Positions 7,317-48,074 of a stretch of DNA of 64,000 nucleotides are shown here, in pieces (the first letter of the stretch is position 1; every line of letters begins with the position of its first letter). Under the pieces are notes generated by a model, which did not search any database, was not told the DNA's origin, and worked only from the letters and a program-made list of their open reading frames with translations. Position numbers and translations under genes: made by a program. The stretch comes from Pseudolabrys sp. (GTDB lineage Bacteria > Pseudomonadota > Alphaproteobacteria > Rhizobiales > Xanthobacteraceae), in contig JAFIGS010000006.1 in assembly GCA_017849615.1 (NCBI GenBank), positions 62,001 through 126,000 of the forward strand, written 5' to 3'.

Positions 7317-7871
7317 ATGAGAGTCGTCGGCGGCCGCCTGCGTTCGCGCCCGATCGCCGGGCCGAAAGGCGAAGGCCTTCGCCCGACCGCGGATCGTCTG
7401 CGCGAGTCGCTGTTCAACATCCTGGCGCATGGTTATGGCAACCCGGTCGAAGGCGCGCGCGTGCTCGATCTTTTCGCCGGCACCGGCGCGCTCGGCATCG
7501 AGGCTTTGTCGCGCGGCGCAGCCTATGTGTTGTTCGTCGATGACGGCGTCGAGGCGCGCTCCCTGCTGCGTGGCAACACCGAGCAACTCGGCTTAGGGGG
7601 CACCAGCCGCATTTTCCGCCGCGACGCGACGAAGCTCGGCCCGGCCTACCCGTTGGAGCCTTTCAGCCTCGCCTTTCTCGATCCGCCCTATGGCAAGGGG
7701 CTCGCCGAACAGGCGCTGGTCTCCGCGCGCGACGGCGGCTGGCTGACGAAGGACGCGCTTGTCGTCGTCGAGGAAGCCGTGAGCGCGAAGTTCGCCGCGC
7801 CGGAGGGATTCGAGGAACTGGAGCGGCGGGCTTACGACGATAGCGAGTTGGTGTTCTTACGCCGCGCGTAA
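7317..7871 (+). CDS. rsmD: 16S rRNA (guanine966-N2)-methyltransferase
   Basis: RsmD methylates G966 of 16S rRNA during 30S assembly. The 184-residue protein starts with the family's MRVVGGRLRSRPI and GLRPTADRLRESLFN. The SAM-binding motif is DLFAGTGALGIEALSRG near 43-59, and the catalytic motif IV is DPPYGKG near 121. Length is as expected. It follows the pseudouridine synthase gene at 52 bp and is probably in the same transcript. Confidence 0.96.
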   Translation: MRVVGGRLRSRPIAGPKGEGLRPTADRLRESLFNILAHGYGNPVEGARVLDLFAGTGALGIEALSRGAAYVLFVDDGVEARSLLRGNTEQLGLGGTSRIFRRDATKLGPAYPLEPFSLAFLDPPYGKGLAEQALVSARDGGWLTKDALVVVEEAVSAKFAAPEGFEELERRAYDDSELVFLRRA

Positions 7872-7872
7872 C

Positions 7873-7957
7873 CGTCGCCCCCGCGAAAGCGGGGGCCCAT
7901 AACCCCTGTATAATCGAGAGGCTGCGGCGTATGGGTCCCCGCCTCCGCGGGGACGAC
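7873..7957. repeat. Palindromic inverted-pair repeat, family B copy 1
   Basis: Two hairpin units in inverted orientation: CGTCGCCCCCGCG...GCGGGGGCCCATA on the left and TATGGGTCCCCGCC...GCGGGGACGAC on the right, with about 30 bp between. It begins one base after the rsmD stop. The right unit, with its inner flank GCTGCGGCG, matches the left unit of the copy at 17689 in reverse orientation over about 37 bp. Confidence 0.9.
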
Positions 7958-7999
7958 CACAACTGCCTTGTACCGCAAGACACCAGAGCCGCCCGGCGC

Positions 8000-8371
8000 C
8001 TACTTCTTCTTCCAGACCTCGGTGCCCTTGGTGCCGGCATCGGTACGGCGCCACCATTTGCCTTCCAGCGAGCCGTCCGGCTTGATGTCCATCACCATGA
8101 TGACCACCTTGCCGTCGGCCAGCGAGCCGACGAACAGCTTGCTGCCGTCGACCTGACCGATGCCGACATATTTGCCGCCATCCCATTTCAGTTCGAGCGC
8201 GCCGCTCTTGTCCATGGTGACGGCCAGCGTGCCTTCACCGTCATATTTGGCGCCGTCGGTCTCGGTGCCGGTCACGACGTAGTTACCGAGCACCTTGGTA
8301 TTGTCCTGCGCCAATACCGGCGTCACCACGGTGACAAGGCCGAGCAGCGCCAAACCAAACATCGATTTCAT
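8000..8371 (-). CDS. Secreted hypothetical protein, 123 residues
   Basis: A signal peptide (MKSMFGLALLGLVTVVTPVLAQ, cleavage after the Ala-Gln region near 21) precedes a mature domain of about 100 residues. The mature part alternates short strands and turns (NYVVTGTETDGAKYDGEG, LELKWDGGKYVGIG, GSLEGKWWRR) and ends KGTEVWKKK, which suggests a small beta-rich periplasmic protein. The phrases resemble those of secreted lipocalin-like or fibronectin-attachment style proteins of rhizobia, but I cannot assign a family. It is a single gene on the minus strand before mutL's end. Confidence 0.8.
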   Translation of the reverse strand: MKSMFGLALLGLVTVVTPVLAQDNTKVLGNYVVTGTETDGAKYDGEGTLAVTMDKSGALELKWDGGKYVGIGQVDGSKLFVGSLADGKVVIMVMDIKPDGSLEGKWWRRTDAGTKGTEVWKKK

Positions 8372-8454
8372 GAAAGCCCCCCTGATAAAACAGCGGGCGG
8401 GAACTTATCGCCGTTCGGCGGCGCTGCCAATAAACAGCCTGTTTATATTCTCGC

Positions 8455-10260
8455 TTATTTCCGCCCGAACAACCTCTCGATATCCCCGAGCTTCAGCTCA
8501 ATGTAGGTCGGCCGGCCGTGATTGCACTGGCCGGAATTGGGCGTCGTTTCCATCTCACGCAAAAGCGCGTTCATCTCGTCGGGCTTGAGCCGTCGCCCCG
8601 CGCGCACCGAACCATGGCAGGCCATGGTCGCCGACACATGCAGCAGGCGTCGCTCCAGCGGCAATGAATCGTCCCACTCCGCCATGTGCTCGGCGAGATC
8701 GGTGACGAGGCCGCGCACATCGACATCGCCGAGCATCGAGGGTGTCTCGCGCACCGCCACCGCGCCGGGCCCGAAGGCTTCCAGCGCCAGGCCGAAATGC
8801 TCCAGATCGGCGGCGCGCGCCACGAGCCGCGCCGCGTCGCCCTCGTCGAGCTCGACGATCTCGGGGATCAGCAGGATCTGCCGCGCGATGCCGGATTTCT
8901 CCAGCGCCGCCTTCATGCGCTCATAGACGATGCGCTCATGCGCGGCGTGCTGATCGACAATGATCAGGCCGTCGCGCGTCTGCGACACGATATAGGTCTC
9001 GTGGATCTGCGCCCGCGCCGCGCCCAAAGGCTGTTCGATGAGTTCGGCGGCCGGCGCGAAGCTTTCGACCCGCGCATCGGCCGACGGCGCGCCGACATCG
9101 AAGGCGGCTTGTGCCACCTCTTCAAAGCCGAGGGCGACATTGCCCTGCGTCGGCGACCATGGCGTCGGCCGCGACGGCGAATTGCGCCAGTCATAGGGCG
9201 CGCGCCGCGCCATCGACACCGGGCGGAACGCGGCGATGGTGGCGCCGCCGCCGGTCGAGGCCGCGCGCTGGCCCTCGCGCGCCAGGGCATTCTTCAGCGC
9301 GCTCACGATCAATCCGCGCACCAGCCCTGAATCGCGAAAGCGTACTTCGGTCTTGGCCGGATGCACGTTCACGTCCACCTCGCTGGTCGGCAGCGTCACG
9401 AACAGCGCCAGCACCGGATGGCGGTCGCGCGGCAGATAATCGGCATAGGCGCCGCGCACCGCGCCGGCGAGCAGCTTGTCGCGCACCGGCCGGCCGTTGA
9501 CGAACATGTATTGTCCGAGCGAATTGGCGCGCGACAGCGTGGGAAGTCCGGCGAAGCCTTCGACACGCACGCCCTCGCGCTCGGCCTCGATGGCGATCGC
9601 GTTGGCGCGGAAATCGGCGCCCAGCACATCGCCGAGCCGCACCAACGGTTCCTCTTCACCCGCCGCGCTCCAGGTGATCGGCGCGCGGTCCTCGCCGGCC
9701 AATGTGAAGGTGACGTCGGGCCGGCTCATCGCCAGCCGCCGCACCACCTCGCGGACGGCTTCGCCTTCGCCGCGATCGGTCTTGAGAAACTTCAGCCGCG
9801 CCGGCGTTGCGTAAAACAGGTCGCGCACTTCCATCGTCGTGCCTTGCGACAGCGCGGCCGGCTTGATCTCGGACTTGTCGCCGCCATCGACGGTGAGACA
9901 CCACGCATGCGGTTCGCTCAAGTGCCGCGTCGTGATGGTCAGCCGCGCCACCGATCCGATCGACGGCAAAGCCTCACCGCGAAAGCCGAGCGTGTGGATC
10001 GCCAGCAGATCGTCGCCGTCCAGCTTGGAGGTGGCGTGACGCTCGACGCACAGGTCGAGATCGGCGCGCGTCATGCCGGCGCCGTCGTCGGTGACGCGGA
10101 TCAGCCGGCGGCCGCCGCCGTCGGTCAGCACGTCGATGCGTTTCGCCCCGGCGTCGAGCGCGTTCTCCACCAGCTCCTTGACGACGCTGGCCGGGCGCTC
10201 GACGACCTCGCCGGCAGCGATGCGGTTGACGACGGCTTCGGACAACTGGCGGACGGGCAT
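8455..10260 (-). CDS. mutL: DNA mismatch repair protein MutL, endonuclease type
   Basis: MutL couples MutS mismatch recognition to strand incision. The 601 residues begin with the GHKL ATPase: NRIAAGEVVERPASVVKELV, ENALDAGA, DDGAGM and TLGFRGEALPSIGSV in the first 100 residues. The C-terminal part has DQHAAHERIVYE, which fits the metal-binding endonuclease signature DQHA-x2-E-x4-E. So this MutL probably nicks DNA itself, unlike E. coli MutL, in keeping with the lack of MutH in such bacteria. The protein ends with CNHGRPTY and IERLFGRK. I chose ATG 10260 (MPVRQL); the upstream extension reads through repeat DNA. Confidence 0.97.
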   Translation of the reverse strand: MPVRQLSEAVVNRIAAGEVVERPASVVKELVENALDAGAKRIDVLTDGGGRRLIRVTDDGAGMTRADLDLCVERHATSKLDGDDLLAIHTLGFRGEALPSIGSVARLTITTRHLSEPHAWCLTVDGGDKSEIKPAALSQGTTMEVRDLFYATPARLKFLKTDRGEGEAVREVVRRLAMSRPDVTFTLAGEDRAPITWSAAGEEEPLVRLGDVLGADFRANAIAIEAEREGVRVEGFAGLPTLSRANSLGQYMFVNGRPVRDKLLAGAVRGAYADYLPRDRHPVLALFVTLPTSEVDVNVHPAKTEVRFRDSGLVRGLIVSALKNALAREGQRAASTGGGATIAAFRPVSMARRAPYDWRNSPSRPTPWSPTQGNVALGFEEVAQAAFDVGAPSADARVESFAPAAELIEQPLGAARAQIHETYIVSQTRDGLIIVDQHAAHERIVYERMKAALEKSGIARQILLIPEIVELDEGDAARLVARAADLEHFGLALEAFGPGAVAVRETPSMLGDVDVRGLVTDLAEHMAEWDDSLPLERRLLHVSATMACHGSVRAGRRLKPDEMNALLREMETTPNSGQCNHGRPTYIELKLGDIERLFGRK

Positions 10261-10270
10261 TCTGTCTCTT

Positions 10271-10414
10271 TCACCTCTCCCCGTTCTTACGGGGAGAGGT
10301 CGGCTTCCGAGCCTTGGCGAGGAAGCCGGGTGAGGGGCAATCGCTGACGTCCCCTCACCCGCCTCGCTGACGCTCGGCACCCTCTCCCCGCACGCGGGGG
10401 AGAGGGGAAGGTGA
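10271..10414. repeat. Palindromic repeat, family C copy 1
   Basis: The element contains CACCTCTCCCCG...CGGGGAGAGGT, GGTGAGGGG...CCCCTCACC and a closing CCTCTCCCCGC...GCGGGGGAGAGG. It fills the gap upstream of mutL and would form three hairpins. Related pieces are at 47910-48074. Between it and the toxin operators (10415-10531) I see GC-rich sequence without a gene. Confidence 0.85.
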
Positions 10415-10531
10415 CGATTCGCCGAGGAATCTAGCGACGGAAGGAGCCCGCCGCGAGGCGGCCGGGCGGGCTGTGCCCGTTATCCCGCCCCTTCGTCGCG
10501 CCCGCCTGCCCCTCCCCGCTCCGCCTCTCTA

Positions 10532-10582
10532 ATATCGCAAACTGCGATATTCCTTGACGCCATTATCGCAAAGTGCGATAAT
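10532..10582 (+). promoter_or_regulatory. Toxin-antitoxin promoter with two operator palindromes
   Basis: Two inverted repeats share the half-site ATCGCA. Operator 1 (10532-10550) is ATATCGCAAACTGCGATAT; operator 2 (10562-10582) has arms ATTATCGCA and TGCGATAAT around AAG. Their centres are 31 bp apart, three helical turns, so they face the same side of the DNA. A sigma-70 promoter fits exactly: TTGACG (10554-10559), 17 bp, GATAAT (10577-10582). The -10 box is inside operator 2 and the -35 box lies between the operators, so a bound repressor would block RNA polymerase. The antitoxin's helix-turn-helix is the likely ligand. Confidence 0.85.
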
Positions 10583-10589
10583 AAGAAAT

Positions 10590-10829
10590 ATGCAGGTTAC
10601 GTTCACCCCGGCGGCGCTGCGGCAGTGGACCAAACTGGACGTCGCCGTGCGCAAGCGCATCAGGGCGAAGATCGAGACGTTCGTGCAGACCGGCAGCGGC
10701 GACATCAAGAAGCTGCAGGGCAGAGCCGGTTCGCGTCTGCGCGTTGGCGATTTTCGCGTGATCTTCTACACCGAGGATCAACTCATGGTCATCGTCGCGG
10801 TGAGCGACCGCCGCGACATCTACGGTTGA
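10590..10829 (+). CDS. RelE/HigB-family toxin
   Basis: A 79-residue protein of the RelE/ParE superfamily, probably an mRNA-cutting toxin acting on the ribosome. The fold signature is the late segment RLRVGDFRVIFYTEDQ and the end VAVSDRRDIYG, where the arginines and tyrosine align with catalytic positions of RelE-type toxins. I chose ATG 10590 (MQVTFTP) because the promoter -10 box lies just upstream and longer versions would start inside it. There is no clear Shine-Dalgarno. Toxin-first order is the HigBA arrangement. The antitoxin gene starts nine bases after the stop. Confidence 0.88.
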   Translation: MQVTFTPAALRQWTKLDVAVRKRIRAKIETFVQTGSGDIKKLQGRAGSRLRVGDFRVIFYTEDQLMVIVAVSDRRDIYG

Positions 10830-10838
10830 GAGAAAGCC

Positions 10839-11222
10839 ATGTCCGTACAGTTCAAAAAAACCGACAAGGGTGAAATAGCGATCCTGCCGCGCGCCGAGTA
10901 CGAGCGGCTTGTCGCTCGCGCCGCCGAAGCCGATGAGGATGCCGCCACCGCGCGACTGGTGGCCCATGCGCGAAAGGAAGTCGCCTCCGGCGCGCCGCTC
11001 ATTCCTCTGGAGGTGGCTGAACGCATCGCCGATGGCGAAAACCCCATCAGGGTCATTCGCGAGTGGCGCGATGTCACCCAGCTTCACCTGTCACACAAAG
11101 CCAATATCGGCCAAGGCTACATTTCCGATCTGGAAAACGGTCGCCGCAAGGGTACGGCCGCCGCGCTCCGTGCGATCGCCAAGGCGCTCGACGTGCCGCT
11201 CGATATACTGGTCGGGGACTAA
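10839..11222 (+). CDS. Antitoxin with C-terminal Xre-type helix-turn-helix
   Basis: A 127-residue antitoxin paired with the RelE/HigB toxin. The N-terminal part (QFKKTDKGEIAILPRAEYER) looks like the toxin-binding or Phd-like segments of antitoxins. The C-terminal 60 residues form an Xre helix-turn-helix: REWRDVTQLHLSHKANIGQG, YISDLENGRRKG and ALDVPLDILV. It should neutralise the toxin and repress the operon through the two palindromes upstream. A GAGAGAAAG ribosome-binding site precedes the ATG. The gene ends with a 4-bp overlap against the convergent arfB gene. Confidence 0.88.
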   Translation: MSVQFKKTDKGEIAILPRAEYERLVARAAEADEDAATARLVAHARKEVASGAPLIPLEVAERIADGENPIRVIREWRDVTQLHLSHKANIGQGYISDLENGRRKGTAAALRAIAKALDVPLDILVGD

Positions 11223-11638
11223 TCCCACCCCTTCTTGCCGCGGCCGGCCTTGACCTCGCTGCGGCGCTTCTTGCCCTCGACGCGCTTTTTCTTCTCGGAT
11301 TTGGGCACCTTCGTCTCGCGCCGCACCGTGGGCCGCACCGCGGCCTGACGGATCATGTCGAACAGCCGCTCGCGCGCCTCGGCGCGGTTGCGCGACTGGT
11401 CGCGGTATTCCTGCGCCACGATGACGATGACGCCGTCCTTGGTCAGCCGCGAGCCGGCCAGCTTCATCAGGCGGATGGCGACGTCGTTCGGCAGCGAGGC
11501 CGAGCGCCGCGCGTCGAAGCGCAGTTGCACCGCCGACGACACCTTGTTGACGTTCTGCCCGCCCGGACCCGAGGCGCGCACGAAGCTTTCCTCGAGTTCG
11601 GACTCGTCGATGGAGATGGATGAGGTGACCTGGTGCAT
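11219..11638 (-). CDS. arfB: Alternative ribosome-rescue factor ArfB (YaeJ-type peptidyl-tRNA hydrolase)
   Basis: A 139-residue codon-independent release factor that frees ribosomes stalled at mRNA ends. The catalytic loop is ASGPGGQNVNKVSSAV, with GGQ at residues 26-28. The basic C-terminal tail (from about 110, KSEKKKRVEGKKRRSEV) is the part that enters the empty mRNA channel in known ArfB. Length and architecture match. Its neighbour upstream is a toxin that probably makes broken mRNAs, an interesting but unproven link. Repeat A copy 2 lies directly before the start codon. Confidence 0.95.
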   Translation of the reverse strand: MHQVTSSISIDESELEESFVRASGPGGQNVNKVSSAVQLRFDARRSASLPNDVAIRLMKLAGSRLTKDGVIVIVAQEYRDQSRNRAEARERLFDMIRQAAVRPTVRRETKVPKSEKKKRVEGKKRRSEVKAGRGKKGWD

Positions 11639-11643
11639 GAAGC

Positions 11644-11786
11644 CGTCATTCCGGGGCGCGGCCAGTCAGGCCGCGAGCCCGGAATCCATACTCCCAGAAT
11701 CAGCTTTTAAACAAACGCAGTCCACCACCATTTCTGCTGCGTTGTATGGATTCCGGGTTCGCTCTTTCAGAGCGCCCCGGAATGAC
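11644..11786. repeat. Palindromic repeat, family A copy 2
   Basis: Outer arms CGTCATTCCGGGGCGCG and the inverse, inner arms CCCGGAATCCATA and TATGGATTCCGGG. A longer centre of about 50 bp with lower GC content separates the two halves. The last base of the element is the final base of the pgi stop codon. Confidence 0.9.
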
Positions 11787-13102
11787 TAGGAGATCAAATA
11801 CTTCTTCGCCAGCACCTTGCCCTCTTCCACCGCCGGCTGGTCGAAGGCATCGACGCCGAGGAGGTGCGCGGCGATGATGGTCTCGAGCATGAAATGCATC
11901 AGCAGTTCGCCCATGCTCTGCTCGTCGATGACCGGCATGTGGATCGTGCGCACCGGGCAGCCGTTCTTGGCCAAGGTTTCCGCCGTGGCGCGGCCCTGCG
12001 CGCCGACCAGATCGCCGATCGACTTGCCGGCGAAGCCCGCCTCGCCCGCCACCTCGGACAGCTTTTTGTCCATGCGCGGGCCCTTGCCGGCGCGGTCGGT
12101 GGTGATGACGGTGAACAACTTGTCGCGCGGTCCGGCAATGAAGAGCTGCAACTGGCTGTGCTGATCGACCGGGCCGAGCGCGCCGATGGGCGTTGTGCCC
12201 TTGCCGTCCTTGCCGAGACTCTCGGCCCAGAGCTGGACATACCAGCGCGTGAAGCGTTCGAGCTTGTCGGCATAGGCCATCACGACGCTGATGCCCTTGT
12301 TCTTGGTCTCGGCCAGCGCCACCGACAGAGCCGCGCCCACGGCGGCCGGCACGTCCCTGGCCTTTTTCTTCTCGAGCACCGGCTTGAGCGCCAGCGCGGC
12401 GCCGCCGCGCACCGCGACGACGTCGAGGCCGAGCATCGCCGCCGGCAGCAGGCCAACATTGGTCAGCACCGAGAAGCGGCCGCCGACGCCGGTGTGATGC
12501 TTGAGCATCGGCACCTTGTACTGGCCGAGCAGCTCGCGCAGGCCGTTCTTCTTGCCGGGCTTGGCCGGCTCGGTGAGGCCGAGGAAGATATCGGGAATGC
12601 GCGGGCCGAGATTCGCCTCGTGCAGCGCCGAGAGCACGGCGATGGTCTGCATCAAGGTCTCGCCGGTGCCGCCCGACTTCGAGATCGACACGAAGCGCGA
12701 GGTCGGCAGCGGCAGGTGCTTGAGCAGCGAGGCGAAGCTGTCGGGATCGAGATTGTCCATGAAGTGCAGCCGCGGCCCGGGGCGCAAGGCGCCGACGCCC
12801 GGCACCATATGGCCGGCGAGTTGCGCCAAAGTCTGACCGCCGAGCGACGAGCCGCCGGTGCCGAGCAGAACGATATCGGTGGCGCGATCGGCGAGCGCGC
12901 GGGCGGTGTCGCGCAGCTCCGGGATTTCGGATGTGGCCTCCGGCAGATTGAGGAGCGGCAGCCCGCCATCGGCATGGCGGGCGCGCAGCCAGTCGAGCGC
13001 GCCTTCGGTGCGTTCGAGAGCCGCGTCGAGCGCCTCCGCGGATACGCCATGCTGGCCGATATTCTGATGAAGCGCGCTGTCGATGGATTGGATCAGGGGC
13101 AT
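11786..13102 (-). CDS. pgi: Glucose-6-phosphate isomerase
   Basis: Pgi interconverts glucose-6-phosphate and fructose-6-phosphate in the cytoplasm. The 438-residue protein has the sugar-phosphate isomerase (SIS) signatures LLGTGGSSLGGQTL near 79, SISKSGGTGETLMQT near 140 and GVGGRFSVLTNVG near 205. The catalytic glutamate region is QLWAESLGKDGKGTTP near 290, and the C-terminal lysine is in AVEEGKVLAKKYLI. It is shorter than E. coli Pgi (549), the usual state for one group of alphaproteobacterial enzymes. The gene stands alone. The start MPLIQSID is the first in-frame ATG with a reasonable leader. Confidence 0.95.
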   Translation of the reverse strand: MPLIQSIDSALHQNIGQHGVSAEALDAALERTEGALDWLRARHADGGLPLLNLPEATSEIPELRDTARALADRATDIVLLGTGGSSLGGQTLAQLAGHMVPGVGALRPGPRLHFMDNLDPDSFASLLKHLPLPTSRFVSISKSGGTGETLMQTIAVLSALHEANLGPRIPDIFLGLTEPAKPGKKNGLRELLGQYKVPMLKHHTGVGGRFSVLTNVGLLPAAMLGLDVVAVRGGAALALKPVLEKKKARDVPAAVGAALSVALAETKNKGISVVMAYADKLERFTRWYVQLWAESLGKDGKGTTPIGALGPVDQHSQLQLFIAGPRDKLFTVITTDRAGKGPRMDKKLSEVAGEAGFAGKSIGDLVGAQGRATAETLAKNGCPVRTIHMPVIDEQSMGELLMHFMLETIIAAHLLGVDAFDQPAVEEGKVLAKKYLIS

Positions 13103-13128
13103 GATGACTCCGTCATGAAATTGTACGG

Positions 13129-13157
13129 GTCATGGCCGGGCTTGTCCCGGCATGACG
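13129..13157. repeat. Short palindrome, family F
   Basis: GTCATGGCCGGG and CCCGGCATGAC form a hairpin with a CTTGT loop in the gap upstream of pgi. It resembles another widespread rhizobial intergenic palindrome. Only one copy was seen. Confidence 0.55.
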
Positions 13158-13192
13158 GAGAAAAATATCTAACGCAGCATATGCGGAACGGT

Positions 13193-14518
13193 TCACTGTG
13201 TGCTCGACGCCAGTCCCTTCGGCCGGCCGGCGACCGTCACCAGCATGCCGCCGCCGAACAGGCGCTTGGCGACGCGCTTGACGTCATCCAGCGTCACGGC
13301 GTCGATCATGGCGGCGCGCTTGTCGATATAGTCGATGCCGAGATCGTCGAGCTGGATCTGCGTCAGTTGCCCGGCGATCTTGGACGACGTGTCGAGCGAC
13401 AAGGGATAGGCGCCCTTGAGATAGTCCTTGGCGGCGGCGAGTTCGTCGGCCGTCGGCCCCTCCTCCGCGATGCGCCTGGTCTCGGCCTCGATGATCGCCA
13501 GCGCATCGGCGGTGCGGTCGGCGCGCGTCGCGGTGCCGCCGAGATAGAGCGCGGCGGATTTGAACCAGACGAGACTCTCCGACACGCCGTAAGCCAGGCC
13601 GCGCTTCTCGCGCACTTCCCTGTACAGCCGCGACGAGAAGGTGCCGCCGCCGAGGATGTGGTTGACGATATAGCCCGCCATGAAGTCGGGGTCCTTGCGC
13701 TGGATGCCGGCGCCGCCGAAAGTGATGACGGCCTGCGGCACATCGACATCGGTGACGATGCGGCGGCCGATGCCGGCGATTTTGGCTTCGGGCACGGGCT
13801 TGAGATCGTTCTTCTCCGGCAGCGAGCCGAACGCCTTGTCGATCAGTTCGCCGGCGGCTTTGGCGTCGATGTCGCCGACGATGGAGATCGTCAGCTCATT
13901 GCGCGCGAACACCCGGCGCGTGTAGTCGCGCAGGTCGGCGATGGCGATTTTGGGCACGCTCTCAAGCGAACCCTTGGTCTCGCGGCCGTAAGGATGATCG
14001 GGAAACGCGGTGCTCCACCAGGCGCGGCTGGCGATGGTGTTGGGATTGGTGGTGTCGCGGCGCAGGCCCGAGATCTGCTGGGCGCGCACGCGCTCCACCG
14101 CCTCGGCGTCGAAGCGCGGCTGCGACAACGCCATGCGCAACAGGTCGAACGCCTCGTCGCGGTTGTCGTTGAGCACGCGCAGCGAGCCGTAGAACTGGTC
14201 GCGGGTCGCGCTGAACGACAATTCGATGGCGCGCCGCTCCAGGCGGTCGTGGAAAGCCCTGCTGTCGAGCTCGCCCGCGCCTTCGTCGAGCGTGTCGGCG
14301 ACCAGATTGGCGGTGCCCGCCTTGTCGGCCGGGTCCTGCGCCGAGCCGCCGTTGAAGGCGTAGCTCATGGCGATCAGCGGCACCGCCTTCTCGCGCACCA
14401 GCCAGGCCTTGATGCCCTTGGGGCTGACGATGGTCTCGATGGTGACGGCGCCGGCCGGCGTCAGGCCGGCGAGCGCGAAGGCGACCACGCCGGCAATGGC
14501 AGCGATGACGGGCTTCAT
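13193..14518 (-). CDS. M16 family peptidase-like protein, zinc site missing
   Basis: A 441-residue secreted protein of the insulinase (M16) family. A signal peptide is present (MKPVIAAIAGVVAFALAGLTPAGAV). The position where active M16 enzymes carry HxxEH reads TANLVADTLDEGAG, so the metal site is absent. The rest keeps family phrases such as GGTFSSRLYREVREKRGLAYGVS near 285-307. It overlaps the stop of the preceding active M16 gene by 4 bp. The pair thus forms the split bacterial M16B arrangement, where the inactive subunit helps bind substrate in a periplasmic heterodimer. Confidence 0.93.
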   Translation of the reverse strand: MKPVIAAIAGVVAFALAGLTPAGAVTIETIVSPKGIKAWLVREKAVPLIAMSYAFNGGSAQDPADKAGTANLVADTLDEGAGELDSRAFHDRLERRAIELSFSATRDQFYGSLRVLNDNRDEAFDLLRMALSQPRFDAEAVERVRAQQISGLRRDTTNPNTIASRAWWSTAFPDHPYGRETKGSLESVPKIAIADLRDYTRRVFARNELTISIVGDIDAKAAGELIDKAFGSLPEKNDLKPVPEAKIAGIGRRIVTDVDVPQAVITFGGAGIQRKDPDFMAGYIVNHILGGGTFSSRLYREVREKRGLAYGVSESLVWFKSAALYLGGTATRADRTADALAIIEAETRRIAEEGPTADELAAAKDYLKGAYPLSLDTSSKIAGQLTQIQLDDLGIDYIDKRAAMIDAVTLDDVKRVAKRLFGGGMLVTVAGRPKGLASSTQ

Positions 14519-15933
14519 GAGCGCTTCCCTCCGGCGCTGATGGGCACCACTTGCTCGGCCTTGCCACCGGCGGCCGGCGTTTCATCCTTGATGAGATAGC
14601 CGGTGACGGAGCGGCGCTTGTCGAGCCAGGCGCGCGCCGCGGCCTGCACCTGGGCCGCGGTGACGGCCTTGATGCGCTCCGGCCACTTCTGCACGTCGTC
14701 CACCGTGGCGCCGCTCATGAGCGCCTGGCCGTACCAGCGCGCCATGGTAGCCTGGTTGTCCTGCGCATAGACCGCGTCGGCGATCAGCCGCGACTTGGCG
14801 CGGTCGATTTCATCGTCGGTGACGCCCTTCTCGACCACGGCGGCGAGCACGGCATCGGCGGCGGCTTCGAATTCAGGCAGGCCGACGCCGCGCGCCGGCA
14901 CGCCATAGACCGTGAACTTCGACATGTCGTAGGCGGATGAGTCGTAATAGGCGCCGGCGCTGACCGCGACCGGCTTGTCAACGACCAGCGCCTGATAGAG
15001 CCGGCTGTTCGAGCCGGTGCCCAGCACATGGGCCAGCACTTCGAGCGCTTCGGATTCGCCGGCCTTGGCGAGGCGGAACGACGGCACGAGATAGGAGCGC
15101 TGCATCAGCGGCTGCTCGACGCGCGGATCGGCCAGCGTGAGCGAGCGCACCGCGGCCGGCGGCGGCTCCTGCGGACGCTCGCGCGGCGGCAGGTCGGTGC
15201 GCGGCTTGATCTGGCCGTAGGTCTCCTGCGCGAATGTCAGCGCCTGCTGCGGATCGACATCGCCGGCGACGACGACCACCGCATTGTTGGGGCCGTAGAA
15301 GCGCTTGTAGAACGCGATCGCGTCGTCCTTCGTCAGCCCTTCCATTTCGTGACGCCAGCCGATGATCGGCCGGCCATAGGGCGAATTGAGGAACAGCGCC
15401 GCGTCGATCTGCTCGCCGAGCCGGGCGCGCGGGTTGTTCTCCATGCGCTGGTTGCGCTCTTCGAGAATGACATCGCGCTCGGGCAGCACCACCGCGTCGG
15501 TGAGTTGCAGGCCCGTCATGCGGTCGGCCTCGAAGTCCATCACCTGCCTGAGCTTGTCGCCCGGCACGCGCTGGTAATAGCCGGTGTAGTCGCTCGAGGT
15601 GAAGGCGTTCTCCTGCCCGCCCATGCGCGCCACGACGGACGAGAAATGCCCGGCCGGATTCTTCGCCGTGCCCTTGAACAGCAGATGCTCGAGGAAATGC
15701 GCGAGGCCGGATTTGCCCGGCGTCTCGTCGGCGGCGCCGACCTTGTACCAGATCATGTGCGTCGCGACCGGCGCGCGGCGGTCGGGGATGACGACCAGTT
15801 CGAGCCCGTTGTCGAGCTTGAAGTGCGAAACGGTGAGCGAAGGTTTGTCGGCGGCGCCGGCGGCGGAAACAAGAACGGGCGCCGCGGCCAGTGCCAGAGC
15901 GGCGGCGCGGAATAAACGAGCTGAAATTTTCAC
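14515..15933 (-). CDS. M16 family zinc metallopeptidase, active subunit
   Basis: A 472-residue periplasmic protease with a signal peptide (ARLFRAAALALAAAPVLVSAAG). The zinc site HFLEHLLFKGT lies near residue 84, with the downstream glutamate in the ENAFTSSDYTGYY region. The substrate-binding part shows NAVVVVAGDVDP and GTGSNSRLYQALVVDKPVAVS. It precedes and overlaps the inactive partner gene by 4 bp, so both are translated together. Targets of bacterial M16B pairs are poorly known; small peptides and misfolded fragments are typical. Confidence 0.95.
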   Translation of the reverse strand: MKISARLFRAAALALAAAPVLVSAAGAADKPSLTVSHFKLDNGLELVVIPDRRAPVATHMIWYKVGAADETPGKSGLAHFLEHLLFKGTAKNPAGHFSSVVARMGGQENAFTSSDYTGYYQRVPGDKLRQVMDFEADRMTGLQLTDAVVLPERDVILEERNQRMENNPRARLGEQIDAALFLNSPYGRPIIGWRHEMEGLTKDDAIAFYKRFYGPNNAVVVVAGDVDPQQALTFAQETYGQIKPRTDLPPRERPQEPPPAAVRSLTLADPRVEQPLMQRSYLVPSFRLAKAGESEALEVLAHVLGTGSNSRLYQALVVDKPVAVSAGAYYDSSAYDMSKFTVYGVPARGVGLPEFEAAADAVLAAVVEKGVTDDEIDRAKSRLIADAVYAQDNQATMARWYGQALMSGATVDDVQKWPERIKAVTAAQVQAAARAWLDKRRSVTGYLIKDETPAAGGKAEQVVPISAGGKRS

Positions 15934-16010
15934 CGGGTCAAACCCTATGACGTTGGCGTGAATGGTGCGTCACACGCGACAAGCCTGTCGGACACCGCCC
16001 CCGCCTCGCG

Positions 16011-16739
16011 TCACTTCGGATTGTCGGTGCCTTTGGATTCGAGATAGTTGGTCGCCTTGGGCGCGGCATCGCGGTCGACGCCGGAGCCGTAAGGCTGGTC
16101 CGGCGACGGCGTCTGGTAGCCGCGCGGCGGATCGGTGAGCGCGGTGCGCGGCGGCTCGCCGGTGAAGCGCGCAGTCTCGTCATCCTTGCCGCCGAACATC
16201 CTGCCGAACAGGCCGCCGCGATAGCCGAGCTGCGACGGGGTCAGGCGCTGACCGCCGCCGGACTCGGTCCAGGTGCTGGCGGTGCGGTTGGGATCGTTGG
16301 CGACGCGCGGGGCGCGGTTGGTCGCGGACGCGCCGGGCATCATTTCGCTCGGGCTCAGCGGGCGCTGGTCGTCGCGCTGCTTCTGGTCCGCCGACTTGTA
16401 GGAGTCGATGCGGGCCTGGCGGGCCGCTTCGCGCTTGCGCGCGATGTCGGGATCCTTCGGCCAGGCCGGGTTGTTGGCGATGGCGGCGTTGGCATTTTCC
16501 GGAACCGGCAGATTGGTGCTCGGCGGAATGACGAGCGGCGCGCGCTCCTGATAGACGATGGCGCCCTTGTTCGGCGATTGCAGGCCGAGGCCTTCCATCA
16601 GGTTGCCGATCATCCTGGAATCCCACGGACGATCGTCGTCGGCGTCATCGGCGCGCGCCGGCAGGGCCTGCATCGCCAGGACGAAGCCCAGGACGCTGGC
16701 CGCGATCGCGGCCTGACGGGGGAAGCGGCGAATGGACAT
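16011..16739 (-). CDS. Secreted hypothetical protein, 242 residues
   Basis: A signal peptide (RRFPRQAAIAASVLGFVLAMQALPARA) precedes a mature part that is polar and rich in Pro, Asn and Asp. Notable phrases are DRPWDSRMIGNLMEGLGLQ and APLVIPPSTNLPVPE near 65-80, a charged helix KREAARQARIDSYKSADQKQ, and GYRGGLFGRMFGGKDDETA near 175. Similar 200-300-residue proteins are common in rhizobia near M16 and lspA genes, without known function. It lies between the M16 pair and lspA on the same strand, so one transcript (lspA, this gene, M16 pair) is possible. Confidence 0.85.
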   Translation of the reverse strand: MSIRRFPRQAAIAASVLGFVLAMQALPARADDADDDRPWDSRMIGNLMEGLGLQSPNKGAIVYQERAPLVIPPSTNLPVPENANAAIANNPAWPKDPDIARKREAARQARIDSYKSADQKQRDDQRPLSPSEMMPGASATNRAPRVANDPNRTASTWTESGGGQRLTPSQLGYRGGLFGRMFGGKDDETARFTGEPPRTALTDPPRGYQTPSPDQPYGSGVDRDAAPKATNYLESKGTDNPK

Positions 16740-16826
16740 GGAACTGGCCCCTTCTTTCGATGACCGGTCGAAACCCGCGCGATTTCGGGCGTTTGAGGTC
16801 GCCTGTGCAGGCCTATTGCCTTGGGA

Positions 16827-17342
16827 TCAGGGCGCTTTTACGGCATGGTCCCCGAAGAAGGACTCATACAGCAGGGCCACGACCCCGGCAACGATGACCA
16901 CGTCGGCGAGGTTAAAAACGTACCAGTTGAAGCGCCAGCCTGCCCCGGAAACGTGAAAAAACACGAAATCGACCACCCAGCCGTGCAGCAGGCGGTCCAC
17001 GGTATTGCCGGCGGCGCCGCCGATGATCAGGCCGAGCGCCAGCGCCGTGAACCGGTTTTCGGCCCTGGCCAGCCAGATCCACAGCAGGGCGACCGCGGCG
17101 ACCTTGAAGCCGACCAGCAGCCACTGCCCCGCCTCGCCCGGCATCTGGAACAGGCCGTAGCTGATGCCGTAATTGCGCGTCAGCACGAAATCGAGAAACG
17201 GCGCCAGCCGCACCGGATTGGCCTCGAGATCGTAGACGAACAGCAGATAGAGCTTGGAGCCCTGATCGACGAGCGCGGCCGCCGCGGCAATGGCGAGGCC
17301 GAACAAGGTCAGCGGCCCGAAGAGATATTGCTTGAGGTTCAT
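16827..17342 (-). CDS. lspA: Lipoprotein signal peptidase
   Basis: LspA cleaves signal peptides of diacylglyceryl-modified prolipoproteins at the inner membrane. The 171-residue protein has four membrane segments. The two catalytic aspartates sit in GNTVDRLLHGWVVDF near 115 and FNLADVVIVAG near 145, and RNYGISYGLF near 57 matches the conserved NxGxxFG-type motif. In many rhizobia lspA lies beside ileS, as here, with a GIY-YIG cassette inserted between the two. Confidence 0.95.
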   Translation of the reverse strand: MNLKQYLFGPLTLFGLAIAAAAALVDQGSKLYLLFVYDLEANPVRLAPFLDFVLTRNYGISYGLFQMPGEAGQWLLVGFKVAAVALLWIWLARAENRFTALALGLIIGGAAGNTVDRLLHGWVVDFVFFHVSGAGWRFNWYVFNLADVVIVAGVVALLYESFFGDHAVKAP

Positions 17343-17368
17343 TTATCCGGTCGTCCCGATCATCTTTC

Positions 17369-17394
17369 GTCGTCCCCGCGCAGGCGGGGACGAC
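17369..17394. repeat. Single hairpin unit, family B copy 2
   Basis: One unit, GTCGTCCCCGCG and CGGGGACGAC, ending 3 bp before the stop codon of the GIY-YIG gene. The matching double element lies just upstream of the same gene, so the gene is bracketed. Confidence 0.9.
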
Positions 17395-17397
17395 ACT

Positions 17398-17682
17398 CTA
17401 TTCGACAATCAAATGACTTAAATCTTTCCATTCCAGGTTATCCTCTTCGATCAGGCGGATTTTCCAGTCGCGATTCCACTTCTTCAGTTGCTTCTCGCGC
17501 CTGATCGCGTCTTCGGCACGTTCATAAGGCTCGATATAGACCAGCCGGTGAACGCCGTATTGCTTGACGAACTCTGAGCCCTTTCCGGCACGGTGCAGCG
17601 CCATTCTCGTGGCGAGACTGTTGGTCACACCGATATAGAGGGTGCCGTGCTTTTTACTGGCGAGGATATAAACGCTGTACAT
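17398..17682 (-). CDS. Small GIY-YIG nuclease-domain protein
   Basis: A 94-residue stand-alone GIY-YIG protein of the UvrC/YhbQ-like type. The two halves of the name motif are VYILASKKHGTLYIGVT: here YIL replaces GIY, and YIG is intact. The catalytic arginine region is NSLATRMALHRAG and the metal-binding glutamate lies in DAIRREKQLKKWNRDWK. I chose ATG 17682 (MYSVYIL); a longer frame would translate the repeat upstream into MGPRLRGDD-like residues. The gene sits between family B repeats on both sides, splitting lspA from ileS, which suggests that it moved in as a cassette. DNA cleavage is inferred from family. Confidence 0.9.
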   Translation of the reverse strand: MYSVYILASKKHGTLYIGVTNSLATRMALHRAGKGSEFVKQYGVHRLVYIEPYERAEDAIRREKQLKKWNRDWKIRLIEEDNLEWKDLSHLIVE

Positions 17683-17688
17683 GAAGCT

Positions 17689-17820
17689 GTCGTCCCCGCG
17701 AAGGCGGGGACCCATACGCCGCAGCATCCCAATTTCTTATCAGGATGGCTGTTTTGTCGCATGGTGACCAGCATCATCGGAAGGGCGGTGGTTATGGGTC
17801 CCCGCCTTCGCGGGGACGAC
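17689..17820. repeat. Palindromic inverted-pair repeat, family B copy 3
   Basis: Left unit GTCGTCCCCGCGAAGGCGGG (17689 on) running into ACCCATACGCCGCAGC, and right unit TATGGGTCCCCGCCTTCGCG, ending at 17820. About 75 bp of lower-GC sequence lies between. It starts 6 bp upstream of the GIY-YIG start codon and ends 5 bp before the ileS stop. Architecture equals the copy at 7873. Confidence 0.9.
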
Positions 17821-17825
17821 GATTA

Positions 17826-20800
17826 CTACCCCGCCTTACGCATCGTCTCCCGTTCGCGCAGCGCCTTGGCGTCGCGCGGCGAAACGTCCGGGTAGTCAGG
17901 GTCGGCGCCGATCGTGTTGAGGATCTTCCACGAGCGCGCGCACTTGGTGCCCTCGGCGAGGTTCGACACCACCGCGACGCCCGTCACGTCCGGCAGCCTG
18001 AACGCGCTGTCCGGCCCGGCATCGCTCACCAGCGTCAGCGCCGAGGTGATGCAGACTTCCGCCATGTCGACGTCGAGCACCGCTTCGTAAAGCTCGCCGT
18101 TCGACACATGCACGATCGGATGCGCCTCGAGCGAGGAGCCGATGCGTTTGCCGGCGCGTTCGATCTCGATGGCGCCGGTGACGACGCGGCGCACGGTGCG
18201 CACCTTGCGCCACTTCTCCGCCAATTTGTCGTCGCGCCAGCCCGCCAGCACCTTGGGGAATTCCTCGAGATGCACCGATTTCGCCTCCGCGCCGTAGCGC
18301 GACAGCCAGGCCTCCTCGGTGGTGAAGCACAGGATCGGCGCCATCCAGGTGACGGTGCAGCGGAACAGATAATCGATCACCGTCAGCGAAGCCTTGCGCG
18401 TCACCGACGAATAGGGATCGCAATAGAGCGTATCCTTGCGGATGTCGAAATAGAACGCCGACAGGTCCGAGGTCATGAAGGCCGACAAGGCCGCGAAGAT
18501 CTTCTTGTAGTCGAACTCGGCATAGGCCTTGCGCACCAGTTCATCGAGCTCGACGAGGCGATGCAGCATCAGCCGCTCGAGCTCCGGCATCGCTTCGGCC
18601 TTGACGCGCTCGTCGTCGTGGAAATGCGCCAGCGAGCCGAGCATCCAGCGGATGGTGTTGCGCAGCTTGCGATAGGTGTCGGCGGTGGTCTTGAGAATCT
18701 CCTTGCCGATGCGCAGGTCGTCGGCATAGTCGGAGGCGCAGACCCACATGCGCAGGATGTCGGCGCCGGATTCCTTGATGACGTCCTGCGGCGCGACGAC
18801 GTTGCCGAGCGACTTCGACATCTTGCGGCCGTTCTCGTCGAGCACGAAGCCGTGCGTCAGCACGACGTCGAAGGGCGCGCGGCCGCGCGTGCCGCAACTC
18901 TCGAGCAACGACGAGTGGAACCAGCCGCGATGCTGGTCCGAGCCTTCCAGATACATCACCGCGTCGCGGCCGCCATCGACCTTGCGGCGGATGCCGGCGA
19001 GCTGCGGGAAATGCGCCGGGTCCTCGAGCACGAAGGCGTGCGTCGAGCCGGAATCGAACCACACGTCGCAGATGTCATCGACCTTCTGCCAGGAATCGTT
19101 CGCCAGCTTGCCGAGGAAGCGCTCGCGCGCGCCTTCCTTGTACCAGGCGTCGGCGCCTTCTGCGGCGAAGGCCTCGGCGATGCGGATATCGACCTGCGAG
19201 TCGCGCAGGATCTCGACCGAACCGTCCGGCTTTTCCTTGATGAACACCGCGATCGGCACGCCCCAGGCGCGCTGGCGCGAGATCACCCAGTCCGGGCGGC
19301 CGGAGATCATGCCGTTGATGCGGTTTTCGCCCTGCGGCGGCACCCATTTGGTGACCGAGATGGCTTGCAGCGCCCGCGCCCGCAAGGTGTCGCCGCGCCC
19401 GGCGATATCCTTGTCCATGGCGATGAACCATTGCGGCGTGTTGCGGAAGATGATCGGCTTCTTCGAGCGCCACGAATGCGGATACTGATGCTTGAGGCGG
19501 CCGCGCGCGATGATCCCATAGTACTCGACGAGCGCTTTGACCACCGCCTCATTGGCGTCGCCCTTCTCGCCCTTGTCGTTGATGACGCGCTTGCCCTCGA
19601 AACCGGGCGCCTGCGCGGTTAGCGCGCCGTTCTCGTCGACGGTGTAGGGGATCGCCGGATTGATGCCGCGCGCTTCGAGCTCGCGCGCATGCGCGGTCCA
19701 GACCTCGAAGTCCTCGCGGCCATGGCCCGGCGCGGTGTGCACGAAGCCGGTGCCGGCGTCGTCGGTGACGTGCTCTCCGGGCAGAAGAGGCACATCGAAA
19801 TCATATCCGAGAGCGGCAAGAGGATGGTGACAGACCAGACCGACCAAATCATCGGCGGTCACTTCGCGAAGACGCTCATAGCTCTCCACTTTGGCGGCTT
19901 TGAAGACATCGGCTGCGAGCTTGTCGGCCAGAATATATTTGTCGCCGATTTGCGCCCAGTTGCCGGGCGCTGCGGCGGTCACCTTGTAGAGACCGTATGA
20001 AATCTTCTTGGAATAAGCGATCGCCCGATTACCCGGTATCGTCCAAGGCGTCGTCGTCCAGATGACGATGTATGCGCCGTCACGCAGAAGTTCAAAGGCA
20101 CCGTCCGATGCTTCCTTCGAAGACACGATTTCGAAGCGCACCCAGACCGTGTCGCTCGTATAATCCTCGTATTCGATCTCCGCTTCGGCGAGCGCGGTCT
20201 TTTCAACGACCGACCACATCACCGGCTTTGAGCCGCGATACAAGGTGCCGTTGGCGGCGAACTTCATCAGTTCGCGCGCGATCTGCGCCTCGGCCGGGAA
20301 GCTCATCGTCGTGTAGGGATGATCCCAGTCGCCCTCAACGCCGAGCCGCTTGAACTCGTCGCGCTGCACGTTCAGCCACTTCTCGGCATAGGCGCGGCAT
20401 TCCTGGCGGAACGCCACCATCGCCGCCGGCTCGGAGAAATTCGGCTTCGCCTTGTTCTTGGAGCGGTAGTTCTCTTCCTCGATCTTCCATTCGATCGGCA
20501 GGCCGTGGCAGTCCCAGCCCGGCACGTAGTTGGAATCGAAGCCGAGCATCTGCTGGCTGCGCGTCACCACGTCCTTGAGGATCTTGTTGAGCGCGTGGCC
20601 GATATGGATGTTGCCGTTGGCGTAAGGCGGGCCGTCATGGAGCACGAACTTGGCGCGGCCCTTGGCCTCGGCGCGGAGCTGCTTGTAGAGGTCCGTGTCC
20701 TTCCAGCGCTTGAGGAGCTCGGGCTCCTTCTGCGGCAGGCCGGCGCGCATCGGGAAATCCGTCTGCGGCAGGAACAGAGTCTCGGAATAATCTTTCTCGG

Positions 20801-20834
20801 ACGATTTTTCGGACGTTTTTTCGGACTTGGACAT
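17826..20834 (-). CDS. ileS: Isoleucyl-tRNA synthetase
   Basis: IleRS charges tRNA-Ile and edits misactivated valine. The 1002-residue class I enzyme has the HIGH motif in [16 protein letters not shown] near 67, the editing-domain phrases [15 protein letters not shown] and [17 protein letters not shown], and the KMSKS loop in [10 protein letters not shown] near 665. The start at 20834 (MSKSEKTS) gives a short Ser/Lys-rich leader before [13 protein letters not shown]. Bases 19770-20240, within the editing domain, use noticeably more A/T-ending codons than the rest of the gene, which may mark recombination. Confidence 0.97.
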
Positions 20835-20941
20835 TCGTTTTTCGCGCAAAATCAATGGGGTCGCGGGCTGTGTAGCAGGGCCGTTTTGGCCGCGCAAAGG
20901 CTTCGGCCGGGTAAATGGCCGCGGCGGCGCCGACGCGGCGC

Positions 20942-47909: not shown

Positions 47910-48074
47910 CACCTCTCCCATAGGGAGAGGTCGGATCGTCATAGCGCGTTTGCGACGCGCTATGACGATCCGGGTGAGAGGTTATAGCCTATCGATGATC
48001 AGGAACCCCTTCACCCCAACCCTCTCCCCACATAGTTCGCCGTACGGCGAACGTTCGTTCGCCTATGGAGAGGG
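47910..48074. repeat. Palindromic repeats, family C copies 2 and 3
   Basis: The first half (47910-47984) has CACCTCTCCC/GGGAGAGGT, a hairpin ATAGCGCG/CGCGCTAT and GGTGAGAGG. The second half (48005-48074) has CCCCTTCACCCC, CCCTCTCCCC and GGAGAGGG with a hairpin TTCGCCGTACGGCGAA inside. Both are relatives of the element upstream of mutL. They fill the gap between the MFS and lipoprotein genes. Confidence 0.8.

Follow-up and report, generated by a model that had tools for sequence, protein, structure and literature searches.

Does the small nuclease gene that lies among palindromic repeats at this Pseudolabrys locus act on those repeats and help to spread them? The gene and its surroundings in the window, the whole 64,000-nucleotide stretch of DNA that was analysed, are arranged as follows.

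7874-7901, plus strand: left unit of a gene-free doublet (7874-7957)
7930-7957, minus strand: right unit of the same gene-free doublet
16827-17342, minus strand: lspA, the downstream neighbour of the nuclease cassette
17369-17394, no strand assigned: palindrome GTCGTCCCCGC-GCAG-GCGGGGACGAC, with a tag at both ends, 3 bp downstream of the nuclease stop codon
17398-17682, minus strand: GIY-YIG nuclease gene, 94 residues (PF01541, E 9e-16; model pLDDT 89.6)
17689-17716, plus strand: repeat unit GTCGTCCCCGC-GAAG-GCGGGGACCCATA, adjoining the start of the nuclease gene
17793-17820, minus strand: inverted second unit, which completes the doublet 17689-17820
17826-20897, minus strand: ileS, the upstream neighbour of the cassette

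The sequence-only reading had described a 94-residue GIY-YIG gene that splits lspA from ileS, with a single repeat unit 3 bp away on one side and an inverted double unit 6 bp away on the other. The gene is real, lspA and ileS stand on either side of the cassette, and the first base of the doublet lies 6 bp upstream of the start codon. The 3-bp distance on the other side also holds, but the element there is not a normal single unit; because it carries a tag at both ends, it is probably a collapsed doublet. The second doublet said to lack the nuclease is present at 7874-7957, and the reported match over about 37 bp (GCTGCGGCGTATGGGTCCCCGCCTYCGCGGGGACGAC) was found with one difference. A further tag-to-tag palindrome, GTCATAGCGCGTTTGCGACGCGCTATGAC, occurs at position 47938. 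The open frame of the nuclease extends through the repeat to 17727, and positions 17683-17727 would append MLRRMGPRLRGDD to the protein; this run into the repeat is a source of mistaken start annotation. No Rfam match to a structured RNA was found in 7700-18000, and a defence-system or phage gene was ruled out, with no PADLOC or PHROGs match.

The number of palindromes in the 64-kb window by itself stands out only a little (5 matches at no more than 3 mismatches versus a shuffle mean of 1.8; 4 of 100 shuffles reach 5). Across the whole 4.40-Mb window genome (G000) the abundance of the repeat is not chance: there are 77 copies at up to 3 mismatches, a count that lumps in a sister family ending CCCAG, versus 0 for the reversed pattern, and 19 exact window-type copies (ending CCCATA) versus 0 for the reversed control. 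The repeats are located mostly in intergenic DNA. A strict pattern run on 30 of the 77 sites found five distinct doublets, the window's 17689-17820 being one of them, and in all five one inner end is CGCCGC-like and the other ATAACC- or ATAATC-like. A looser doublet of the same genome (L010) is without the CGCCGC-like inner end. Both inner-end kinds recur in the gene-bearing pair of a relative, G019, as in the G000 doublets, and the gene-bearing units of Bradyrhizobium that were inspected are mostly symmetric. The cleanest layout, repeat, gene and inverted repeat, is found in G019 and at two Bradyrhizobium loci (L301 and L316); in G004 a doublet stands on each side of the gene, and in the window a doublet on one side and the presumed collapsed doublet on the other. 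Gene-free doublets can be read as short relatives of the gene-bearing unit, a reading that fits the architecture and is not proved by it. Elsewhere in the window genome (L007, G000 C20, 1506-2532) two window-type repeats, separated by about 994 bp, surround a different open frame of at most 139 residues.

The bracketing score was that of the strongest inverted match linking the 200 bp on one side of a gene to the 200 bp on the other, and genes scoring at least 18 were counted as bracketed. The related genomes numbered 40, of which 24 belong to the genus (the window genome included) and 16 to the order. They gave 79 matches at E≤1e-10, the window gene among them, in 28 genomes, and the flanks of all 79 were read; 58 were bracketed. 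Control ORFs were bracketed in 0 of 22 cases in the same loci and 0 of 136 from eleven randomly chosen 20-kb regions; pairing flanks from different genomes reached the threshold in 64 of 790 cases. A wider Pseudomonadota sample contained a match in 98 of 299 genomes. Among the matches listed there, 109 strong ones (E up to 1.7e-29) were read, two partial and all weaker or shorter ones being omitted; one of the 109 was excluded for a short flank, and 64 of the remaining 108 were bracketed, with 0 of 29 control ORFs. Both sets combined (79 + 108 genes) give 122 bracketed genes of 187; none of the 187 control ORFs and none of the 23 lspA genes that served as a control family passed, both kinds of control being longer than the nuclease gene. 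Eighty named loci were picked by likeness to the window protein, one of them being the G019 locus again; one was dropped, and 73 of the 79 left were bracketed. Six of 11 plasmid records inspected, from 31 with a match, also show bracketing. Thus the RAYT-like layout with a GIY-YIG enzyme, read at first from one locus, recurs in the related genomes, phylum-wide among the matches listed, and at the named loci.

The bracketing sequences are largely of one build. A CGTC-type unit, defined as a CGTC or TGTC tag pointing outward plus a CC[AC] tail, was seen at 87 of the 187 genes on the upstream side and at 84 on the downstream side, with 62 genes having one on each side; the corresponding counts for 2200 random 285-bp windows, which are matched in size and are not genes, are 25, 23 and 0. 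Inward-pointing tags were seen 23 and 39 times around the same 187 genes. Among bracketed genes the repeats lie close to the gene, at median distances of 24 and 18.5 bp. Sixty-five of the 187 genes fall below the bracketing threshold, and 28 show no bracket and also have no CGTC-type unit in the adjoining 200 bp. Non-CGTC bracketing families also exist, such as the CCCGGG type at two other strong copies in the window genome. Clustering of sites by single linkage chained, with 86 of the 187 in one cluster, and it therefore served only for the loci left unlinked, 65 in number, among which 40 are bracketed. Chance adjacency is ruled out by the control ORFs, lspA and the random windows, and the counts establish that the nuclease family is associated with bracketing repeats.

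The type of repeat follows the clade of the protein. Distant paralogues within one genome have different repeat families. For 142 genes from genomes with several paralogues, each repeat was compared with the one beside the most closely related protein of a different genome, at a site without recognised homology; the mean likeness was 25.3, versus 19.1 (sd 0.8) when repeats were shuffled among paralogues of the same genome, and 0 of 5000 permutations reached 25.3 (0 of 2000 in a less strict version). Between different genomes, at sites not seen as homologous, the repeat was shared in 98 of 111 protein pairs with at least 70% identity and in 512 of 8172 pairs at 50–60%. In the window clade the outer GTCGT and inner CCCAT are mostly constant and the stem varies, being CCCCGC in Pseudolabrys and CCCTGC, CCTGGC or CCCGGC in groups of Bradyrhizobium.

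From these sequence comparisons, a candidate nuclease that acts on the repeats and spreads them emerges as the best explanation. The GIY-YIG family likely provides CGTC REPs with a dedicated nuclease, in the way that RAYTs serve GTAG REPs. There would then be a large family of nucleases of about 95 residues, whose clades are each paired with a palindromic repeat family of their own, mostly of the CGTC type. The gene and its inverted repeat pair would form one genetic unit, with gene-free inverted doublets as its short relatives.

The survey that defines the CGTC-tagged REP super-family places it mostly in alphaproteobacteria and reports no associated transposase (Di Nocera et al., 2013; PMC3733652). 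Its units are given there as a CGTC or TGTC tag, a stem of 8–9 bp, a loop of 4–5 nt and a CCA tail, arranged in inverted dimers. The window unit (TGTC-GTCCCCGC-GAAG-GCGGGGAC-CCA) has this tag, stem, loop, tail and dimeric arrangement. It differs in that its stem begins with GT, whereas AT is almost invariable in the super-family; many other bracketing families do have stems beginning with AT. A nuclease gene family is associated with the repeats here, whereas no transposase was found with them in PMC3733652. The survey leaves open the mover of these repeats, which predominate in alphaproteobacteria. The present proposal names a specific enzyme as candidate and predicts for each clade the repeat that it would act on, so that the question can be tested with purified protein. 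If true, an unrelated nuclease fold would do for CGTC REPs what HUH transposases do for GTAG REPs. The main text of a 2025 REP survey (PMC12306157) returned no nuclease, RAYT or transposase in a word search, and titles and abstract beginnings of the open-licence PMC papers listed in the searches contained no report linking GIY-YIG enzymes to REPs.

REP/RAYT systems (PMC3116915; PMC3733652; for RAYTs also PMC8049555) resemble the present one in several respects: short palindromes that form inverted doublets dispersed through intergenic DNA, a dedicated enzyme gene with members of its own repeat family on either side (here the window gene and 122 of 187 members), co-divergence of enzyme and repeat, which is found here too, and long vertical inheritance at some sites. 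On the other hand, the enzyme here is a GIY-YIG nuclease and theirs a Y1 HUH tyrosine transposase, the tag is CGTC or TGTC rather than GTAG, and here cassettes occur at several sites with several paralogues. The working would be REPtron-like, yet this is not a REPtron, because the enzyme superfamily and the tag are both different. A background RAYT was ruled out for the genus, none of its 24 genomes matching the RAYT-type Y1_Tnp profile (PF01797) at E≤0.001. Compared with a classical insertion sequence, which has a transposase and a target-site duplication, the unit shows inverted repeats, a GIY-YIG protein as its only enzyme and no visible duplication in spacers that have diverged.

Presence and absence of the cassette were compared at homologous sites. 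The sequence-only reading had called for a search for cassette-free lspA-ileS alleles in relatives, and such junctions exist. Among 16 genomes read, the cassette is present in 4 (G000, G004, G019 and G023). It is absent, with an ileS-lspA gap of 3 to 24 bp, from G002, G012, G014, G013, G006, G009 and G003; G007 has no insert either, its gap being estimated from a partial match. The other four (G010, G011, G005 and G008) contain other palindromic or repeat-like sequence and no nuclease gene, and the junction may therefore be a hotspot. On plasmid p3 of Azospirillum lipoferum 4B the gene lies between sufB and sufC with a doublet on each side; six of six other Azospirillum plasmids aligned are without it, with a diverged spacer in which insertion boundaries are not readable. 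The clearest comparison comes from Sphingobium, where two carriers were aligned with four related cassette-free plasmids. Of these empty sites, TYG64 holds a lone tag-to-tag palindrome, TYG74 an altered form of it and the other two neither; the palindrome may be either a scar or a landing site. Neither a target-site duplication nor a sharp boundary was found at the ileS-lspA, Azospirillum and Sphingobium sites, whose spacers have diverged. One aligned Sinorhizobium relative retains the nuclease gene, and in one set of sites (cluster 0) orthologous copies are retained in many Bradyrhizobium species.

Repeat copy number was also compared with presence of the gene, a check proposed in the sequence-only reading. 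Across 149 genomes of the family, a window-type gene (E≤1e-30) is found in 8 of the 10 genomes with at least 10 CCCTGC-type repeats versus 8 of the 139 others (p 1e-7, phylogenetically uncorrected), and in none of 8 genomes with 1–8 copies. In the genus g18, carriers have 16, 173 and 154 CCCTGC-type copies versus 4, 1 and 2 in non-carriers; the genome with 173 copies (G239) is counted as a carrier, yet its only window-type match contains a stop codon. In the Pseudomonadota sample, at least 5 repeats of a general shape occur in 29 of 72 genomes with a strong match versus 22 of 227 without (p 2e-8, phylogenetically uncorrected). Repeat-rich genomes thus do show an excess of the gene. Strict dependence did not hold. 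Eight of the 16 window-type carriers in the family test have zero copies of the CCCTGC-type repeat (two have the CCCCGC variant), and two genomes of genus g206 without the gene have 38 (G443) and 15 (G458) copies. For the one general repeat shape, 31 of the 72 strong-match genomes have no copy, and 12 of the 32 genomes with at least 10 copies have no strong match. Exact window-type copies occur without a window-type gene in G002 (58 copies; 86% complete), G010 (36; 82% complete) and G011 (19; 100% complete). In Pseudolabrys itself the association is weak (p 0.03 and 0.02, phylogenetically uncorrected) and does not support a copy number that depends strictly on the gene.

The window protein matches PF01541 and PF10544 as its only profiles, and no NCBIfam model matches it. 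It has the conserved domain, fold and catalytic residues of the GIY-YIG superfamily. R26, H30 and E63, which we take to be catalytic from their roles in GIY-YIG enzymes, are conserved in 263, 266 and 266 of 267 sequences. By sequence and fold its closest solved relatives are the small GIY-YIG proteins of UPF0213, 1zg2 and 1ywl; 1zg2 is the nearest fold to the model (E 5e-4), followed by Slx1 (E 0.035), UvrC (E about 0.6) and I-TevI (E about 1), all three above the 0.001 line. Because the fold is nearest to UPF0213 and then Slx1, the nuclease would recognise its cognate palindrome probably as a hairpin, cruciform or fork-arrested form, and it may cut in or beside it. Break repair or template switching could then place a copy of a doublet, or on rare occasions of the gene cassette, elsewhere. 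As GIY-YIG enzymes are not known to form a covalent intermediate when they hydrolyse DNA, copying would depend on host repair. That GIY-YIG nucleases propagate the repeats of the CGTC super-family over the Pseudomonadota by such cut-and-repair, as a mobile class undescribed in the literature searched, is a broader claim towards which we lean only slightly.

The gene is under strong purifying selection, with dN/dS of 0.066 and 0.094 at two Bradyrhizobium sites; internal stop codons were found in 10 of 187 and 4 of 80 frames. This selection bears on the alternative that survives best, although we think it unlikely, namely that the repeats spread otherwise and the GIY-YIG gene is a selfish homing endonuclease that cuts them and is copied in by repair. 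Homing-endonuclease features belong to free-standing GIY-YIG enzymes of the I-TevI type, which have the same catalytic domain and make a selfish gene moving as a small unit plausible. Consistent with homing, the repeats outnumber the genes and persist without them, a lone tag-to-tag palindrome occupies the empty Sphingobium site TYG64 (altered in TYG74) where carriers have the cassette, and I-TevI is among the structural matches, though not significantly. Here, however, no intron or phage context was seen, 94 residues leave scant space for a separate DNA-binding domain, and the targets would be multi-copy repeats. The tracking of nuclease clades by repeat families and the rise of copy number with the gene in the family test also argue against it, and the persistence of cluster 0 orthologues across many Bradyrhizobium species under such selection is unexpected from a pure homing cycle.

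Less likely still is a domesticated, structure-specific repair nuclease of the host that clears hairpins or cruciforms formed by the repeats and is bracketed by them for its own regulation. Resemblance of the fold to Slx1 and UvrC, dN/dS of 0.07–0.09 and the nearness of the bracketing repeats to the gene would suit such a role. It leaves unexplained why one genome has several paralogues with different repeat families and why cassettes come and go at homologous sites, and it gives no reason for distinct stems to need distinct enzymes. Coincidence, small genes lying by chance beside dense intergenic repeats, could draw on the mostly intergenic position of the repeats and on the own-genome pair that encloses a different ORF, but is very improbable given the control ORFs, lspA and the within-genome permutation.

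The preferred reading, a GIY-YIG nuclease dedicated to its own palindromic repeats, may extend to a weaker-scoring tier of the enzymes, which we take to be YhbQ/UPF0213-like. Twenty such genes were picked from the matches listed, mostly with long spans, and 4 of these 20 chosen (L241, L243, L248 and L249) are bracketed, by a different repeat of the CCTGAG...TCGAAGG type; this branch may do likewise for that repeat family. The tier thus differs in its bracketing from the window protein, although UPF0213 proteins are the closest solved relatives of the latter. Among plasmid copies of the family, one from Planktothrix (L362), below the bracketing threshold, has an MmeI-type restriction enzyme on one side and DISARM drmA on the other. 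A GIY-YIG gene of the family from Neisseria gonorrhoeae (L358), whose record is labelled plasmid, has CGTCATTCCCGC-type repeats next to it.
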